Below are positions 2,623 to 14,237 of a DNA stretch of 29,139 bases, piece by piece. A program made the position numbers and the translations under genes. Within the stretch, counting starts at the first letter, position 1. Each line of letters begins with the position of its first letter. The stretch is from a virus, in IMG/VR virus record IMGVR_UViG_3300025853_000481, positions 1-29,139 of that record. One strand, written 5' to 3'. Below the pieces are notes generated by a model that was not told the origin of the DNA, made no database searches, and worked only from the letters and a program-made list of their open reading frames with translations.

Positions 2623-2834
2623 TTATTTAGTGGACATTTATTAGTTTCTATCATACTTCTAGTTTTAGCATGTAAGGGACAACCGCATTCACTGCAGATT
2701 GTCCCATACATAGAGGGACACTTAGCACATATCGATGCTCTTTCTTTTGCTATCTTCTCCACCTCTTCATTCTTCCATACGACATTTCTCCATCCATCGT
2801 ATATTTCTGCTAATTTATCTTTCCAGCTTTTCAT
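2610..2834 (-). CDS. Small zinc-ribbon protein (CxxC ... CxxCGCP)
   Basis: A 74-residue protein with four or more paired cysteines: CAKCPS, then CSECGCP, then KCPLNKW near the C-terminus. The spacing is that of a compact zinc-binding ribbon. Similar short proteins ending in CPLNKW are common beside structural genes of Bacteroidota phages, from memory of such genomes, but their function is not established. The start codon abuts the stop of groEL (shared base at 2834), so the two are probably translated together. Confidence 0.8.
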   Translation of the reverse strand: MKSWKDKLAEIYDGWRNVVWKNEEVEKIAKERASICAKCPSMYGTICSECGCPLHAKTRSMIETNKCPLNKWEY

Positions 2835-4441
2835 TATTTCATGTTTCCTCTATCCATTGTAATAGATTCATGGATATGTTGATCATCAGTATAATATATA
2901 ACTCCTTCTGTTGTTAATATCATCTTTGCTACAGATGCTGCATTTTCTAATGCACATCTTGTTACTTTAGCTGGATCAATGATTCCTTCTTCTATAAGGT
3001 CTTTTACCTCTTTGTTTGTTTTAACATTTAAAGGATTCTTACTCTCATGAGTAAGTCCTGCATTATGAAGTATCTGATCAAATGGTTTAGCACAAGTTTT
3101 TAGAATTATATCTATTCCCTCATAAAACTCATTAGGTTTTGATGTTGGCAAAGCAAACTTACCTGGATGCTTTAAAAACCAGCCACCACCTGGAAGTATA
3201 CCTTCTGATAATGCAGATTGAGTAGCTAGGATAGAATCTTCTACTCTATCTTTTCTTTCCTTTCTTTCTATGTCAGAACCACCACCTACATATACAGTAG
3301 CTATTCCACCGAACATTTGAGCATATCTATTTTTATGTCTATCATCAAGACCTTTTTGAGCATTCTTAATATTTTCCTTAATAGAAAGCTTTCTCTTTTC
3401 AATAGCATCAGGATTTCCTTTTCCTCCTATAATAACAGTTTGCTTTCTATTTACAATTACCTTTTTAGCAGAACCATAGAAAGTAGATTTAAAACCTTTA
3501 GGTGTATCTCCTTTATTATAATCTTGAAATGATGCTCCTGTGATTACAGAAAGATCTTCTAAATGAAATGTTCTCATATTAGACATTCCAGGTGGTAACA
3601 CTGCTGCAGCTTTAATATGTCCATTTCTAACATTCTTTAATAAAAAAGCTAATGCTGATTTATTAAGTTCTTCACAAATAATAAGAATAGGTCTATCTTG
3701 TGATTGAGCTATCTTAGTTATATGATATGCTTCTGTATCAGAAGATAATTTAAAGTTAGATACTACAATAAGAGGATTATCTAAAACTATCTCTTCAGTA
3801 TCAGCTGCTACAATAAAATTAGCATTGATAATAGGTTGTTGCCAAGTAGCACCTTTAATTGTTTCAATATAACTTTCAGGACTCTCTGTGTACTCCATAA
3901 GTACTTGACCATCTTGACCAACCATTCTTACTGCTTCAGTTATAAGTTCTCCTAGTTTAGGATCATTATTAGCTGAAATAGTAGCAACATGCAATAAACT
4001 GTCATCTTCAATATTTACAGGTTGTGATTTATTCTTAATAGCTTCTACTATCTTATTAACTGCAAATGTAATACCTTCATTTAAATCTATTGGATTTGCT
4101 TTTGGATTGATATTAAGGTATTTAATACCTTCTCTAATTATTTCTCTAGCTATTACTGTAGCTGTTGTTGTTCCATCACCAGCTTCATCAGCTGTCTTTT
4201 GTGCTGCTTCTTTAATAAGCTGTGCCCCTATATCTTGTACAGGATCTTTTAAAAAGAACTCACTAGCTACAGTTACTCCATCTTTAGTGACTCTAGATTG
4301 ATTGTAATGTCTTTGTAGAATTACATTCCTTCCTTTAGGTCCCATTGTATAGGCAACTGTATCAGCTAGGAGGTTTATACCTTTCAGTAACTCCTCTCTA
4401 GCTTCTTGTTTTGATATTACACTTCTCTGATCTCCAAACAT
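2834..4441 (-). CDS. groEL: GroEL-like chaperonin, phage-encoded
   Basis: A full-length 535-residue group I chaperonin (bacterial GroEL is about 548). Diagnostic segments are TMGPKGRNV (32-40), the ATP-binding DGTTTATV (89-96), RVED with the catalytic aspartate at about 402 (E. coli D398) and GILPGGG (414-420). The apical domain is divergent, and the flexible Gly-Gly-Met tail of bacterial GroEL is missing; the protein ends ...DRGNMK. The GroES-like gene lies 22 nt upstream, so this is a complete folding pair within a phage packaging operon, presumably to fold phage virion proteins. The ATG has a clear Shine-Dalgarno AGGAG 7 nt upstream, rare in this genome, which argues for strong translation. 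Confidence 0.95.
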   Translation of the reverse strand: MFGDQRSVISKQEAREELLKGINLLADTVAYTMGPKGRNVILQRHYNQSRVTKDGVTVASEFFLKDPVQDIGAQLIKEAAQKTADEAGDGTTTATVIAREIIREGIKYLNINPKANPIDLNEGITFAVNKIVEAIKNKSQPVNIEDDSLLHVATISANNDPKLGELITEAVRMVGQDGQVLMEYTESPESYIETIKGATWQQPIINANFIVAADTEEIVLDNPLIVVSNFKLSSDTEAYHITKIAQSQDRPILIICEELNKSALAFLLKNVRNGHIKAAAVLPPGMSNMRTFHLEDLSVITGASFQDYNKGDTPKGFKSTFYGSAKKVIVNRKQTVIIGGKGNPDAIEKRKLSIKENIKNAQKGLDDRHKNRYAQMFGGIATVYVGGGSDIERKERKDRVEDSILATQSALSEGILPGGGWFLKHPGKFALPTSKPNEFYEGIDIILKTCAKPFDQILHNAGLTHESKNPLNVKTNKEVKDLIEEGIIDPAKVTRCALENAASVAKMILTTEGVIYYTDDQHIHESITMDRGNMK

Positions 4442-5747: not shown

Positions 5748-6107
5748 TTAGACTAATACTATAATACTATCATATAGGGTTTTAGCATAACCCCTAAGAT
5801 TACTACTATCAGCTTTAATGATGTTATCAGAATTAATATTGGTTATTTTAAACTTCTTCTCTCTATGTATCAGCGATGATGCTGATCCATTATCATAATT
5901 AGCTACTTCTAATCCTTCATCTGATAATGGGTAATATATTACATGTTTAGTCTCTTTAGACTTCTCTTCTCCATCTTCTGTTACTTTATATACATAATCT
6001 TCATTATCTAAATATATAACAAGTTCACTAGGTTTGTGAATAGGGGTATCTATAATAATCATAATCAAATCTCCCCTAACTATGTCTAATCCATTTCTAT
6101 CTTTCAT
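5748..6107 (-). CDS. Hypothetical protein (119 aa)
   Basis: A 119-residue beta-rich protein. Its N-terminus (MKDRNGLDIVRGDLIMIII) resembles the start of small SH3-like barrels in which a turn precedes a hydrophobic strand. The rest alternates strands and polar loops. It overlaps the winged-helix gene by 11 nt. Function unknown. Confidence 0.68.
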   Translation of the reverse strand: MKDRNGLDIVRGDLIMIIIDTPIHKPSELVIYLDNEDYVYKVTEDGEEKSKETKHVIYYPLSDEGLEVANYDNGSASSLIHREKKFKITNINSDNIIKADSSNLRGYAKTLYDSIIVLV

Positions 6108-6462: not shown

Positions 6463-6479
6463 TTATAATTTCTTTTCTG

Positions 6480-6511
6480 CAAATATAACACTTTATATTT
6501 TATATATGCAA
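6480..6511 (-). promoter_or_regulatory. Bacteroidota-type promoter for the chaperonin-terminase operon
   Basis: On the minus strand TTGC (6511-6508), a 20-nt spacer and TATATTTG (6487-6480) match the -33 TTG and -7 TAnnTTTG pattern of Bacteroidota primary sigma factor promoters, with correct spacing. Transcription would begin about 10-15 nt before the winged-helix start at 6462, giving a very short leader. Confidence 0.65.
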
Positions 6512-6551
6512 GTTTTTTTACTATTTTTTTGTTTTAAGTAACAATTAGATA

Positions 6552-6820
6552 TAATATTCCCCTTAGCTGGGCTGAAATCTCTATTGCTAGAGCTCCTTTT
6601 TAACCTTCAACTTCTATCTAGCCGTTTTGAGCCTACACCAGTTACTTAATCTCTCTGTCAATTCAGAAGGCTTACTTTTACCTGTAACCAGCCCTAGATG
6701 TTATATGAAGGTTGTTTTCGTATCTACCGGGGACAACCTCTCTACTATTTGTAGATACTAACCCGATGTCTTTGCCTCTAATGATTACCTGGAGGCTGAT
6801 ATTGATACTTTGCAATATTA
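6552..6820 (-). ncRNA. Structured noncoding RNA candidate, about 269 nt
   Basis: This gene-free stretch is clearly richer in G and C than its surroundings and full of pairing. A 7-bp outer helix joins 6814-6820 to 6552-6558. Within it 6706-6713 pairs with 6602-6609 (8 bp) and 6694-6699 with 6616-6621 (6 bp), separated by a symmetric 6 by 6 internal loop. Further hairpins are 6720-6727 with 6751-6758 (8 bp), 6774-6778 with 6792-6796, and 6579-6583 with 6588-6592, which on the minus strand closes a GCAA (GNRA-type) tetraloop. GGGCTG/CAGCCC and GGTTGT/ACAACC segments could pair alternatively or as pseudoknots. Strand is inferred from the GNRA loop and the leftward neighbours. No known class recognised. 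Confidence 0.6.
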
Positions 6821-6848
6821 GGAACTATATTTTACAATTCCTAATATT
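6814..6848 (-). terminator. Perfect 11-bp inverted repeat after the first leftward operon
   Basis: AATATTAGGAA (6814-6824) and its exact complement (6838-6848) form an 11-bp hairpin with a 13-nt loop, 8 nt after the stop of the 40-residue gene. No T-run follows on the minus strand; on the plus strand a TTATTTTTT tract follows after 7 nt. It may be a weak or bidirectional terminator or a processing site. It shares bases with the outer helix of the adjacent RNA candidate, so the two are mutually exclusive. Confidence 0.45.
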
Positions 6849-6855
6849 TATACGA

Positions 6856-6978
6856 TTATTTTTTAGAAAGGTTGTATTTAATCCATTCTTCTTTATCTTT
6901 TTCCCATACCCCTGTTAATTCTGGATGAAACTCCCAGAACATCCCAGAGTTTAGTAACTTTATATAATCTTCTTTCAT
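6856..6978 (-). CDS. Small phage protein (40 aa)
   Basis: A 40-residue acidic protein beginning MKEDYIKLLNSGMFWEF and continuing HPELTGVWEKDKEEW. The aromatic-rich pattern resembles a short protein seen repeatedly in Bacteroidota phages, from memory. Its ATG overlaps the TGA of the upstream gene (ATGA), which supports translation. Function unknown. Confidence 0.7.
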   Translation of the reverse strand: MKEDYIKLLNSGMFWEFHPELTGVWEKDKEEWIKYNLSKK

Positions 6979-7894: not shown

Positions 7895-8131
7895 ATGAAC
7901 TTTACTAAATTTTTATTACAAGAGGTTACTAATCACACAAATGGAGAGGTTTCTCAAAGAATAATGGTAGCAACTGATACTAATCAGCTTATCAGACTAT
8001 TTCACCCTAATCACACTCTTGAGGACATCAAGAAAGATGCGGACAGCATCAGAAAGAGTTTGGTTGTAGGAGAGAGTGAGTATGGCAAATTTGCTTACAT
8101 ACCATTAGCAATCACATTGGAAGAGTTTTAA
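7895..8131 (+). CDS. Hypothetical protein (78 aa), first rightward gene
   Basis: A 78-residue soluble protein starting MNFTKFLLQEVTNHTNGEV, with a helical middle and a hydrophobic end (GKFAYIPLAITLEEF). The ATG follows TTTAAACTATAAAGCT, the start-linked element repeated through this arm, which supports the start. As the first gene of the rightward arm it is likely expressed early. No family recognised. Confidence 0.7.
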   Translation: MNFTKFLLQEVTNHTNGEVSQRIMVATDTNQLIRLFHPNHTLEDIKKDADSIRKSLVVGESEYGKFAYIPLAITLEEF

Positions 8132-8141
8132 TAACTCTTTC

Positions 8142-8157
8142 AATCCCTTCGGGGATT
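8142..8157 (+). terminator. UUCG-loop hairpin after the first rightward gene
   Basis: AATCCC, TTCG and GGGATT form a perfect 6-bp hairpin with the very stable UUCG tetraloop, 11 nt after the stop at 8131. There is no T-run, so it could be a weak terminator, a 3-prime end protector or a processing site. Confidence 0.5.
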
Positions 8158-8219
8158 TGCTCTAATTAACAGTGTACAGGATAAGTGTACATAATAATAA
8201 TTACTTAAACTATAATGCT

Positions 8220-8333
8220 ATGAAAGATTTAAAAGAATATGTACCTTATGTGTACAAATGTAAAAAGATTACTATTGATGCTGTAACAGGATGTGCAAGT
8301 CCTTATTCTCCAAGAGAGAAGCACAATAAGTAA
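8220..8333 (+). CDS. Small peptide (37 aa)
   Basis: A 37-residue basic peptide starting MKDLKEYVPYVYKCKK. The ATG follows TTAAACTATAATGCT, a copy of the start-linked element, which is the main reason for calling it. Coding statistics are too short to judge. It ends 6 nt before the first of four structured RNA candidates. Confidence 0.5.
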   Translation: MKDLKEYVPYVYKCKKITIDAVTGCASPYSPREKHNK

Positions 8334-8339
8334 AATAAT

Positions 8340-8450
8340 GAAATACTACTAAATTTAATTGTATCTATGATACTCTTATTGATGAACAGTAAAGGTTGTG
8401 TTAACATAACGCACAATATCTCATAGGTGTGAAGAACCTTGTAGTATTTC
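8340..8450 (+). ncRNA. Structured RNA candidate 1, closed by a 10-bp helix
   Basis: GAAATACTAC (8340-8349) is exactly complementary to 8441-8450. Inside, 8361-8365 pairs with 8369-8373 around a 3-nt loop, and AAGGTT (8392-8397) pairs with AACCTT (8435-8440), which abuts the closing helix and could stack on it. A further TGTG/CACA pairing lies inside that arm. No start codon with the usual upstream element opens a credible frame. Strand is assumed to follow the neighbours. Confidence 0.6.
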
Positions 8451-8455
8451 TATTA

Positions 8456-8681
8456 TAATCAATTAAAGTTTATGAGGTCTAAAAGGCATAAGGACTGCGT
8501 GTACACATAATGCTATATATCTTCTATTAACCAAGTAAGATGTAGAATATTAGGGTGTTCAGATAAAGACTAGTCTATGAGGTTGCTGAAAAACATTTAG
8601 CTTATGCTATCTAAAACAACTAATTGACTCTGTGGTGGAGGTTGGAACAGGTAATTCAGAAGATAATACTTTAATTGATTA
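8456..8681 (+). ncRNA. Structured RNA candidate 2, closed by a 14-bp helix
   Basis: TAATCAATTAAAGT (8456-8469) is exactly complementary to 8668-8681, a 14-bp perfect helix enclosing 198 nt. Inside are TTATG/CATAA (8470-8474 with 8487-8491), TTCAG/CTGAA flanking about 8559-8590, a TTTAG/CTAAA hairpin near 8596-8615, and the palindromes GTGTACAC and AGACTAGTCT. The frames are broken by stops. A perfect helix of this length over such a distance is unlikely by chance even at this AT content. Confidence 0.62.
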
Positions 8682-8759
8682 AACTTAGGTGTAACACACA
8701 GCCTCAATAAATGTGTGATGAGTATGTATTATCAGGATACATACAAGATAACCCAAGTT
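8682..8759 (+). ncRNA. Structured RNA candidate 3, about 78 nt
   Basis: This element starts on the base after candidate 2 ends. AACTT plus GGT (8682-8690) pair with ACC plus AAGTT (8751-8759) around one mismatch. Two inner hairpins are clear: CACACA/TGTGTG (8695-8700 with 8712-8717) and GTATGTAT/ATACATAC (8722-8729 with 8737-8744, 7-nt loop). The layout is a compact three-way junction. Confidence 0.55.
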
Positions 8760-8761
8760 CT

Positions 8762-8825
8762 AATGTAAATGATTTAAACACGGAGTTGTAGCTACTAAGG
8801 TTGTAAGCCCTTAATTATTTACATT
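8762..8825 (+). ncRNA. Structured RNA candidate 4, about 64 nt
   Basis: AATGTAAAT (8762-8770) is exactly complementary to 8817-8825, extended by ATT/AAT across a 1 by 1 mismatch. The enclosed part holds AAGG/CCTT (8797-8800 with 8809-8812) and a GTAGCTAC palindrome, and is richer in G and C than its flanks. It ends 43 nt before the next start codon, so it could also be a 5-prime regulatory element of that gene. Confidence 0.52.
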
Positions 8826-8868
8826 TTGACTTATTAGAGGTATTATTAACTTATTAAACTAAAGAATT

Positions 8869-9054
8869 ATGATAGGAATATATGCAGGGATAGCAATTAT
8901 CCTGTTTGGAATAGTTATATTAGGATGTTTTAAAACATTAGAGTATATAGATGATAGATATAATTTAAATTATGCAATGTCTCTATTCATTTTTATAATG
9001 TACTGGGGAGTAATAATATCTATAGGAGGTATTATTTATGAATTATTAAATTAA
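8869..9054 (+). CDS. Small membrane protein (61 aa, two spans)
   Basis: A 61-residue protein with two hydrophobic segments: GIYAGIAIILFGIVILG (about 3-19) and LFIFIMYWGVIISIGGIIY (about 39-57), joined by a short charged loop (EYIDDRYN). It would sit in the inner membrane with both ends on one side. The ATG follows TTAAACTAAAGAATT, repeated exactly before the next gene. Function unknown; small membrane peptides are often used by phages to alter the host envelope. Confidence 0.72.
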   Translation: MIGIYAGIAIILFGIVILGCFKTLEYIDDRYNLNYAMSLFIFIMYWGVIISIGGIIYELLN

Positions 9055-9784: not shown

Positions 9785-9964
9785 ATGAAACAATTTATAA
9801 AATCAGCATTCTTTGCTAATCTATTAATAGTACTATCATTTGCTTTCTTAACAGTGTTATCATACATAGCTAATAAAGATGGAGCAACGTGTCCAACAAT
9901 GTTCTTTGGAATTTGTACTATTATATTTCTAATTATACTACCTTCGTGTAGTTTAAAAAATTAA
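9785..9964 (+). CDS. Small membrane protein (59 aa, two spans)
   Basis: A 59-residue protein with two hydrophobic spans, FFANLLIVLSFAFLTVLSYI (about 9-28) and FFGICTIIFLIILPS (about 40-54), and a short loop with KDGATCP. It follows TTTAAACTATAAAACTAAATACT. Both ends probably face the cytoplasm. Function unknown. Confidence 0.65.
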   Translation: MKQFIKSAFFANLLIVLSFAFLTVLSYIANKDGATCPTMFFGICTIIFLIILPSCSLKN

Positions 9965-10947: not shown

Positions 10948-11148
10948 ATGAAAAATTTTATAAATACAGACTATTATGGTTATGCCATAGGTCAAAATCA
11001 GAGAAAGACTGATATAACAGCTCAAGAGCTAAAAGAATTAGATGAAAAAAGAGAATATAAACAAGCAGTAACTATTGGTATTATAATAATGGCATCAGTT
11101 ATAACTTTAGGATTGATACTAAGTCAATTCCAAGGTAATGTTTATTAA
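10948..11148 (+). CDS. Small single-span membrane protein (66 aa)
   Basis: A 66-residue protein with a charged cytoplasmic-type N-terminal half (TAQELKELDEKREYKQ) and one C-terminal span, AVTIGIIIMASVITLGLIL (about 41-59), ending GNVY. It follows ATAAACTAACACATT. It is the last gene before the structured block at 11152-11335. Function unknown. Confidence 0.68.
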   Translation: MKNFINTDYYGYAIGQNQRKTDITAQELKELDEKREYKQAVTIGIIIMASVITLGLILSQFQGNVY

Positions 11149-11151
11149 AAA

Positions 11152-11335
11152 TACTTATTTGTTTCATAGCGTATAAGTAGTTTAAATTAAGCCTGGTGTA
11201 GCAGTGATGTTTATCCAGGCTCTAATATATCAAATTGTCAGAAGAACGGATAATGTAGCGTAGCATGTAAATACGTACATACCTTGTAACAGTAATAATG
11301 AGATATACGAAGATGTAAACTCCAAATGAACATCT
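11152..11335 (+). ncRNA. Block of RNA hairpins between two genes
   Basis: This 184-nt gene-free block holds consecutive helices: TACTTAT/ATAAGTA (11152-11158 with 11173-11179), the GC-rich AGCCTGG/CCAGGCT (11190-11196 with 11215-11221), TATATC/GATATA (11226-11231 with 11302-11307) enclosing ATGTA/TACAT (11265-11269 with 11276-11280), and AGATGT/ACATCT (11311-11316 with 11330-11335). It may be a separate RNA or the long 5-prime leader of the gene at 11394. No known riboswitch pattern is recognised. Confidence 0.52.
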
Positions 11336-13216: not shown

Positions 13217-13272
13217 AACACCACTCCGTATAGGTAAAGCTTCTATTGTAGAAGGACTGTAGTTGTGGTGTT
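13217..13272 (+). ncRNA. Structured RNA candidate, 56 nt, 8-bp closing helix
   Basis: AACACCAC (13217-13224) is exactly complementary to 13265-13272. Inside is CTTCTA/TAGAAG (13240-13245 with 13249-13254). The element begins 5 nt after the stop of the 237-residue gene and precedes a second candidate by 4 nt. It shares the string ATAGGTA before its inner hairpin with the candidate at 14081-14237. Confidence 0.5.
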
Positions 13273-13276
13273 AAAT

Positions 13277-13365
13277 AAATCATCAGAAAATAAATAACTA
13301 GAGGTGTTTTTTGATAGATTCGCTCACTAGAGGAATTGACGTTCCTAATAACGTCCTGATGATTT
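13277..13365 (+). ncRNA. Structured RNA candidate, 89 nt, 10-bp closing helix
   Basis: AAATCATCAG (13277-13286) is exactly complementary to 13356-13365. GACGTT (13338-13343) pairs with AACGTC (13350-13355), directly abutting and so able to stack on the closing helix. AGGAA (13331-13335) can instead pair with TTCCT (13342-13346), so this end may be a pseudoknot or a switch. It lies 25 nt before the next start codon and could be a leader element. Confidence 0.55.
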
Positions 13366-14080: not shown

Positions 14081-14237
14081 AATCTCTCTGCTAGAAGATA
14101 GACAGATAAACAGCCTTCAATATGAGGATAATAAGCTGTAACCTCTTTATATAAACCGCTTCCAACGGTGTTGTTTATTGGATAGGTAGCGGTAGTCGAA
14201 ACTACGTCAGCACTCCAATGGAAAGGACAGAGAGATT
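14081..14237 (+). ncRNA. Structured RNA candidate, 157 nt, 10-bp closing helix and pseudoknot
   Basis: AATCTCTCTG (14081-14090) is exactly complementary to 14228-14237. Inside lie ACAGC/GCTGT (14110-14114 with 14135-14139) interlocked with GAGG/CCTC (14124-14127 with 14142-14145), a classic H-type pseudoknot layout; an ATAAAC/GTTTAT arm (14151-14156 with 14173-14178) containing ACCG/CGGT; and an ATTGGA/TCCAAT arm (14177-14182 with 14214-14219) containing GTAGT-CGAA-ACTAC (14192-14205). The block is richer in G and C than the flanks. It stands between two genes, 32 nt before a start codon. No known class recognised. Confidence 0.65.

Follow-up and report, generated by a model that had tools for sequence, protein, structure and literature searches.

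Tandem helix-closed domains behind a small conserved gene of a crAss-like phage: a candidate lineage-specific structured RNA

ROOL and GOLLD are large ornate RNAs carried by phages (PMC12286853). Like them, the stretch of DNA described here is phage-borne and gene-free, extends over several hundred nucleotides and carries elaborate helices in a row; moreover, ROOL and GOLLD often lie near tRNA islands, and relatives of the present phage have tRNA and tmRNA genes in the same genome arm. However, our block is lineage-specific and has no sequence or covariance-model match, whereas the core of ROOL and GOLLD is conserved. YrlA and the bacterial Y RNAs (RF02553) are closed by the pairing of their own ends, and part of YrlA mimics tRNA. 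Some modules of sister phages likewise enclose a tRNA-like part, but the four domains of our block do not, and neither a Ro/TROVE protein nor a match to the model was found in these phages. Phage tRNA arrays also consist of closed RNA units in tandem with short joints, but the block has no detected tRNA, and its domains measure 64-226 nt and lack a T-arm. Few phages are as abundant as the Crassvirales. Two papers on this group (PMC7886860, PMC10136315) deal with tRNAs, introns and recoding, and a term search of both found no mention of other structured RNAs.

The window, i.e. the whole stretch of DNA that was analysed (29,139 nt), comes from a 29-kb IMG/VR record. To judge from its genes, the genome is that of a Crassvirales (crAss-like) phage: the TerL is 38-42% identical to those of crAss-like phages and also matches PHROG 6681, and the DNA polymerase has matches in Cellulophaga phage phi14:2 and Maribacter phage Panino. 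A companion 72-kb contig from the same metagenome has a DNA polymerase and downstream genes identical to those of the window, and the block recurs at 100% identity in a 21.5-kb contig (L005/L085) that belongs to the same phage. The leftward arm of the window carries TerL and, near it, the gene for a GroEL-like chaperonin (2834-4441, - strand), which is retained throughout this phage group; the rightward arm starts near 7895. The site itself is made up as follows:

8220..8333, + strand: 37-aa ORF MKDLKEYVPYVYKCKKITIDAVTGCASPYSPREKHNK, the anchor of the site, conserved in the relatives L162 (81% identical) and L095 (40% identical)
8334..8868, + strand: gene-free block with tandem candidate RNA domains, 535 nt, directly 3' of the 37-aa ORF

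A sequence-only reading of this DNA had held that the 535 nt carry no credible gene, and this is borne out, as no ORF of at least 28 aa starts on the + strand within 8334-8868. The next gene 3' of the block is p8869, a small, unconserved ORF of 61 aa at 8869. The same reading had described four structured RNA candidates, each closed by its own long perfect helix. All four pairings exist exactly where it had placed them, and the helices of W1, W2 and W4 are indeed perfect; that of W3 contains one mismatch, as the reading had also listed, and this is A-C:

8340..8450, + strand: W1, 111 nt, 10-bp perfect closing helix (8340-8349/8441-8450, GAAATACTAC), pair probability 0.98-1.0, z -3.1
8456..8681, + strand: W2, 226 nt, 14-bp perfect closing helix (8456-8469/8668-8681, TAATCAATTAAAGT), probability in the ensemble about 0.9-1.0 with 0.48 for the outermost pair, z -1.7
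8682..8759, + strand: W3, 78 nt, two firm inner hairpins, closing helix of 8 bp plus the mismatch (8682-8690/8751-8759, AACTTAGGT/ACCCAAGTT), closing-pair probability 0-0.09, z -3.0
8762..8825, + strand: W4, 64 nt, long hairpin, 9-bp perfect closing helix (8762-8770/8817-8825, AATGTAAAT), pair probability 0.96-1.0, z -1.9

The z-scores compare the folding energies of single domains on the + strand with those of shuffles, and the pair probabilities come from the predicted ensemble of the whole block 8132-8868. This ensemble is dominated by closing helices 1, 2 and 4, with helix 3 reaching at most 0.09. Because of this low probability W3 is the weakest domain in the model, and fits better as two hairpins with a doubtful outer helix. 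Folded as a whole, the 506 nt have a z of only -1.6.

In the comparison with shuffled sequence that the earlier reading had left to be made, the helices exceed chance. Disjoint helices of at least 8 bp in the 535-nt block sum to 41, as against 15.6 in dinucleotide shuffles, and the observed sum was reached in 2 of 300; a helix of at least 14 bp likewise appeared in 2 of 300. The significance is real but moderate, since with a stricter weighting of the larger block 8132-8868 the observed helix score was matched in 3 of 60 shuffles. Tandem domains whose closing helices pair their ends beyond chance are therefore present, three of the four helices being firm.

Searches with nhmmer for each of W1-W4, and with covariance models of W1 and of W3+W4 against 77 loci (1.24 Mb), returned only the query itself. 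Nucleotide similarity to the block among phage records and fetched relatives was confined to the same phage, and the only other copy of W1-W4 found (L005/L085) is identical to the window. W1-W4 are thus known from a single sequence, and the covariation reported below was seen in sister modules only. A weak nucleotide match in a Vibrio phage falls in the AT-rich region of a gene start, outside the domains, and was set aside.

With Rfam 15 (cmscan over the whole window, at gathering score and at E up to 2) no family matched, GOLLD, ROOL, tRNA and tmRNA included. The tie to GOLLD and ROOL that the sequence-only reading had raised is thus not upheld, which agrees with its own remark that it recognised no signature of those classes. 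Three Rfam matches in the block, found when E was extended up to 5, are sub-threshold and plainly spurious. A tRNA or tmRNA identity of the block was rejected, as ARAGORN found nothing and no Rfam model matched. A Y RNA (YrlA) reading was considered as sister modules look tRNA-like, and was dropped because no TROVE/Ro60 gene was found in 24 phage records, including the companion 72-kb contig, although the host may have one, and because no YrlA match rose above threshold: the RF02553 model has no match in the window, and its sub-threshold matches elsewhere (E 0.08 or worse) also arise in 12 of 14 control genomes. A scan for permuted tRNAs gave no case in the window and a real one in L164.

Relatives were sought with TerL, DNA polymerase, chaperonin and the 37-aa ORF, and the site was covered only in L162 (same contig as L160) and L095. 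Behind its copy of the 37-aa ORF, L162 has three other candidate RNA domains:

Domain 1: AAAGGTA(TA)ACACTTC paired with GAAGTGTACCTTT, i.e. AAAGGTA/TACCTTT with ACACTTC/GAAGTGT
Domain 2: closed by TAATCACTAG/CTAGTGATTA
Domain 3: closed by ATGCTGTCATAT/ATATGACAGCAT

This array folds at z -5.1 (0 of 200 shuffles), and the gene-free stretch behind the ORF in L095 folds at z -3.3 (0 of 50 shuffles). Thus, a structured array is present at the orthologous site of the sister phages, and by nhmmer and comparison neither stretch bears any sequence resemblance to W1-W4. As for the gene 3' of the array, the window has p8869, L162 a homologue of window 9785-9964 and L095 another small ORF; since the gene differs each time, this speaks against the control of one particular downstream gene. 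Apart from the comparison with GOLLD and ROOL, the earlier suggestion of independent RNA beads or one large ornate RNA has held up as the best reading: L162 again has a structured gene-free stretch after this ORF, and the same arm of crAss-like relatives repeatedly holds gene-free blocks rich in helices.

Further helix-closed domains occur elsewhere in the window, one of them with a counterpart in the L162 array:

13217..13272, + strand: second-array domain closed by AACACCAC/GTGGTGTT, z -3.5
13277..13365, + strand: second-array domain with a 10-bp closing helix, homologue of L162 882-967
14081..14237, + strand: 157-nt domain closed by AATCTCTCTG/CAGAGAGATT, z -3.0

In L162 the homologue is the second domain after the 37-aa ORF. 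Between the two copies the closing helix shows 3 compensatory changes and 0 broken pairs, a count taken from two sequences only, which 52 of 500 shuffles reach and slid controls never give. Sister elements covary more clearly. The arms of L107, L114, L127, L129 and L158 that correspond to this one share a domain with a closing helix of at least 15 bp, in which 4 pairs show compensatory changes, and a leftward RNA of the window, described below, has such changes in 11 of 29 pairs. Across 108 gene-free blocks of the window and its relatives, an excess of closing helices at p<=0.05 was seen in 19% versus 8% of coding controls. Several of the relatives' blocks hold identifiable RNAs, i.e. tRNAs, tmRNA (L163 3938-4319, L164 6606-7008, G015 65784-66152 and others) and a permuted tmRNA (L169 2954-3308).

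The analysis also brought to light what, by its sequences, is a widespread phage RNA unlisted in Rfam 15, referred to here as family X. It is about 250-300 nt long and has four closed domains, the arms of which vary while the joints are invariant; examples are L173 (phi14:2) 3110-3365, L162 4184-4330 and L214 1870-2170, and it is also found in L189, L248, L267 and others. The full motif CTATCAGTAATGGTAGATGTGTTGTTCCCTTGAGAAAGGAA..ACAACACAAATGAGTTCTCAGCAAGTAGTTA..TAACTACGTGACCCTACTCTTAT..AAGAGGGTGCTAA occurs in 35 loci, a few of them redundant, on about 30 viral contigs. Only full-motif loci are counted, because the short pattern, with its 15 fixed bases, turns up by chance in a collection of this kind. 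Across all 23 distinct cores the first hairpin retains its innermost pair, for which five pair types occur, and the inner stem retains all four of its pairs. In the loci tested Rfam gave no match to X, even at E up to 1 in small loci. X often lies near tRNA or tmRNA genes, and its locus in phi14:2 is now annotated as small hypothetical proteins. Its likeness to W1-W4 lies in the four tandem closed domains carried by a phage in the crAss-like early arm, including that of the sister L162, but it has long invariant stretches (GTTGTnnCCTTGAGAAA .. AACACAAATGAGTTCTCAGCAAG .. GACCCTACTC .. GAGGGTGCTAA) and W1-W4 have none; the core GTTGTnnCCTTGAGAAA, with up to 1 mismatch allowed, is absent from the window and the companion contig. 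Since X, too, consists of successive closed domains, linked by conserved strands, beads in a row can make up a single ornate RNA.

Considering these findings, we think it somewhat probable that the block encodes a lineage-specific, fast-changing structured non-coding RNA outside the known families, and that the helix-closed domains of this RNA are exchangeable. The position and direction of the block suggest that it is probably transcribed rightward together with early genes, between the conserved 37-aa ORF and the unconserved small gene. Consecutive domains would fold locally, each tied by the pairing of its own two ends; such private pairing would spare the domains from misfolding into each other, and insertion, loss and exchange of domains would be tolerated. 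Phage lineages could then gain, lose, swap and remake domains with the architecture staying in place. Because the block is non-coding and the downstream gene changes from one copy of the site to another, it most likely acts as RNA rather than as a control element of that gene, either as one ornate RNA or cut at its AU-rich joints into small RNAs. Transcription, early timing, processing and action in trans are what we infer from these features. That the rapid turnover reflects an arms race, with the block serving as a decoy or effector against a host factor, is only a guess.

The main rival is a role in cis, where the structures would be untranslated-region elements that stabilise early mRNA, set processing sites or insulate the translation of neighbouring genes, with no separate RNA being made. 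The block does lie between two co-directional small genes, small hairpin leaders precede other genes in the window and in L095, and no promoter or terminator stands out inside the block, sigma-70-type promoters and simple Bacteroidota promoter patterns being either not above chance in shuffles or outside it. Nevertheless, the structured stretch persists in the window, L162 and L095 while the downstream gene varies, and 535 nt of ornate structure would make a large spacer for a compact phage; we regard roles in cis as a serious possibility, though not a likely one. It could also be argued that the helices matter as DNA or not at all, being inverted repeats involved in replication or recombination, or unselected palindromes of AT-rich sequence arisen by chance. 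Palindromes are strand-symmetric, the - strand of W2, W3 and the L162 array folds just as well, the z of the whole block is modest, and the 29-kb window holds a total of 100 perfect helices of at least 9 bp. But shuffles rarely give such helices in an unbroken chain, W1 depends on G-U pairing in the + strand (142 bits for its model, versus 21 bits on the - strand), and the relatives' blocks hold true RNAs (tRNA, tmRNA) and covarying families, and we find an explanation without RNA function quite unlikely.

A known class in decayed or extreme form, be it a tRNA/tmRNA array, GOLLD/ROOL or a Ro-binding Y RNA, is very improbable: the Rfam, ARAGORN, TROVE and YrlA searches described above argue against it, as does the lack of a T-arm in W1-W4, even though tRNA and tmRNA are present in the same arm of relatives and two of these carry a circularly permuted tRNA-like module resembling the tRNA-mimicking part of YrlA.

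If the array of W1-W4 is made as RNA, it would mark a class of fast-evolving phage non-coding RNA overlooked by annotation. The related RNA kind X is carried by the cultured Cellulophaga phage phi14:2, which makes an experimental test possible. A broader and rather doubtful proposal is that crAss-like phages keep an RNA island in the early arm, composed of interchangeable helix-closed modules (the permuted tRNA-like module and X among them) that are reshuffled faster than genes from lineage to lineage, with W1-W4 as a private set acting in trans on the host.

The permuted module, which has no anticodon loop and looks like a tRNA opened at the anticodon arm, was seen in L107 2158-2071 (-), L158 1961-1868 (-) and L214 about 2008-2090, free-standing in the first two and within an X arm in L214. 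It comprises a T-arm, an acceptor arm capped by a short loop and a D-arm, with the ends joined by a 12-bp helix; in L107 and L158 the T-arm is GTGGTTCAAATCCAC and the loop UUCG, and these two copies differ by compensatory changes. L164 5507-6068 consists of closed units in a row, each with a private 9-bp helix. The joints between them are 4 nt long (GATA/AATA), and the left strand of the helix is followed by AACAGCAA, which the units share; the unit at 5766-5882 encloses a permuted tRNA-Glu-like sequence, and another encloses the 5' half of a tRNA-Leu. The DNA polymerase and helicase genes of L164 and L165 are split by inserts of roughly 1 kb (L164 11380-12487, L165 4781-5763 and 10420-11546), which are probably introns or inteins.

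Two further elements of the window are conserved in relatives. The gene-free stretch at about 6463-6880 contains a leftward RNA (6570-6800, - strand) with the core GACATCGGGTTAGTA..GAGGTTGTCCCCGGTA..GACCTT..AAGGTTAAA, which is common to L095, L045, L044, L057 and L081, shows compensatory changes in 11 of 29 consensus pairs and has no Rfam match; the 68-aa ORF at 6712-6918 on the opposite strand looks spurious. At 11146-11235 (z -4.6) two neighbouring hairpins are conserved in L162 2639-2711 (84%); the stem of one is compensated (ACTTAT/ATAAGT versus ACTTAG/CTAAGT), and the other, GCCTGG..CCAGGC, is invariant.
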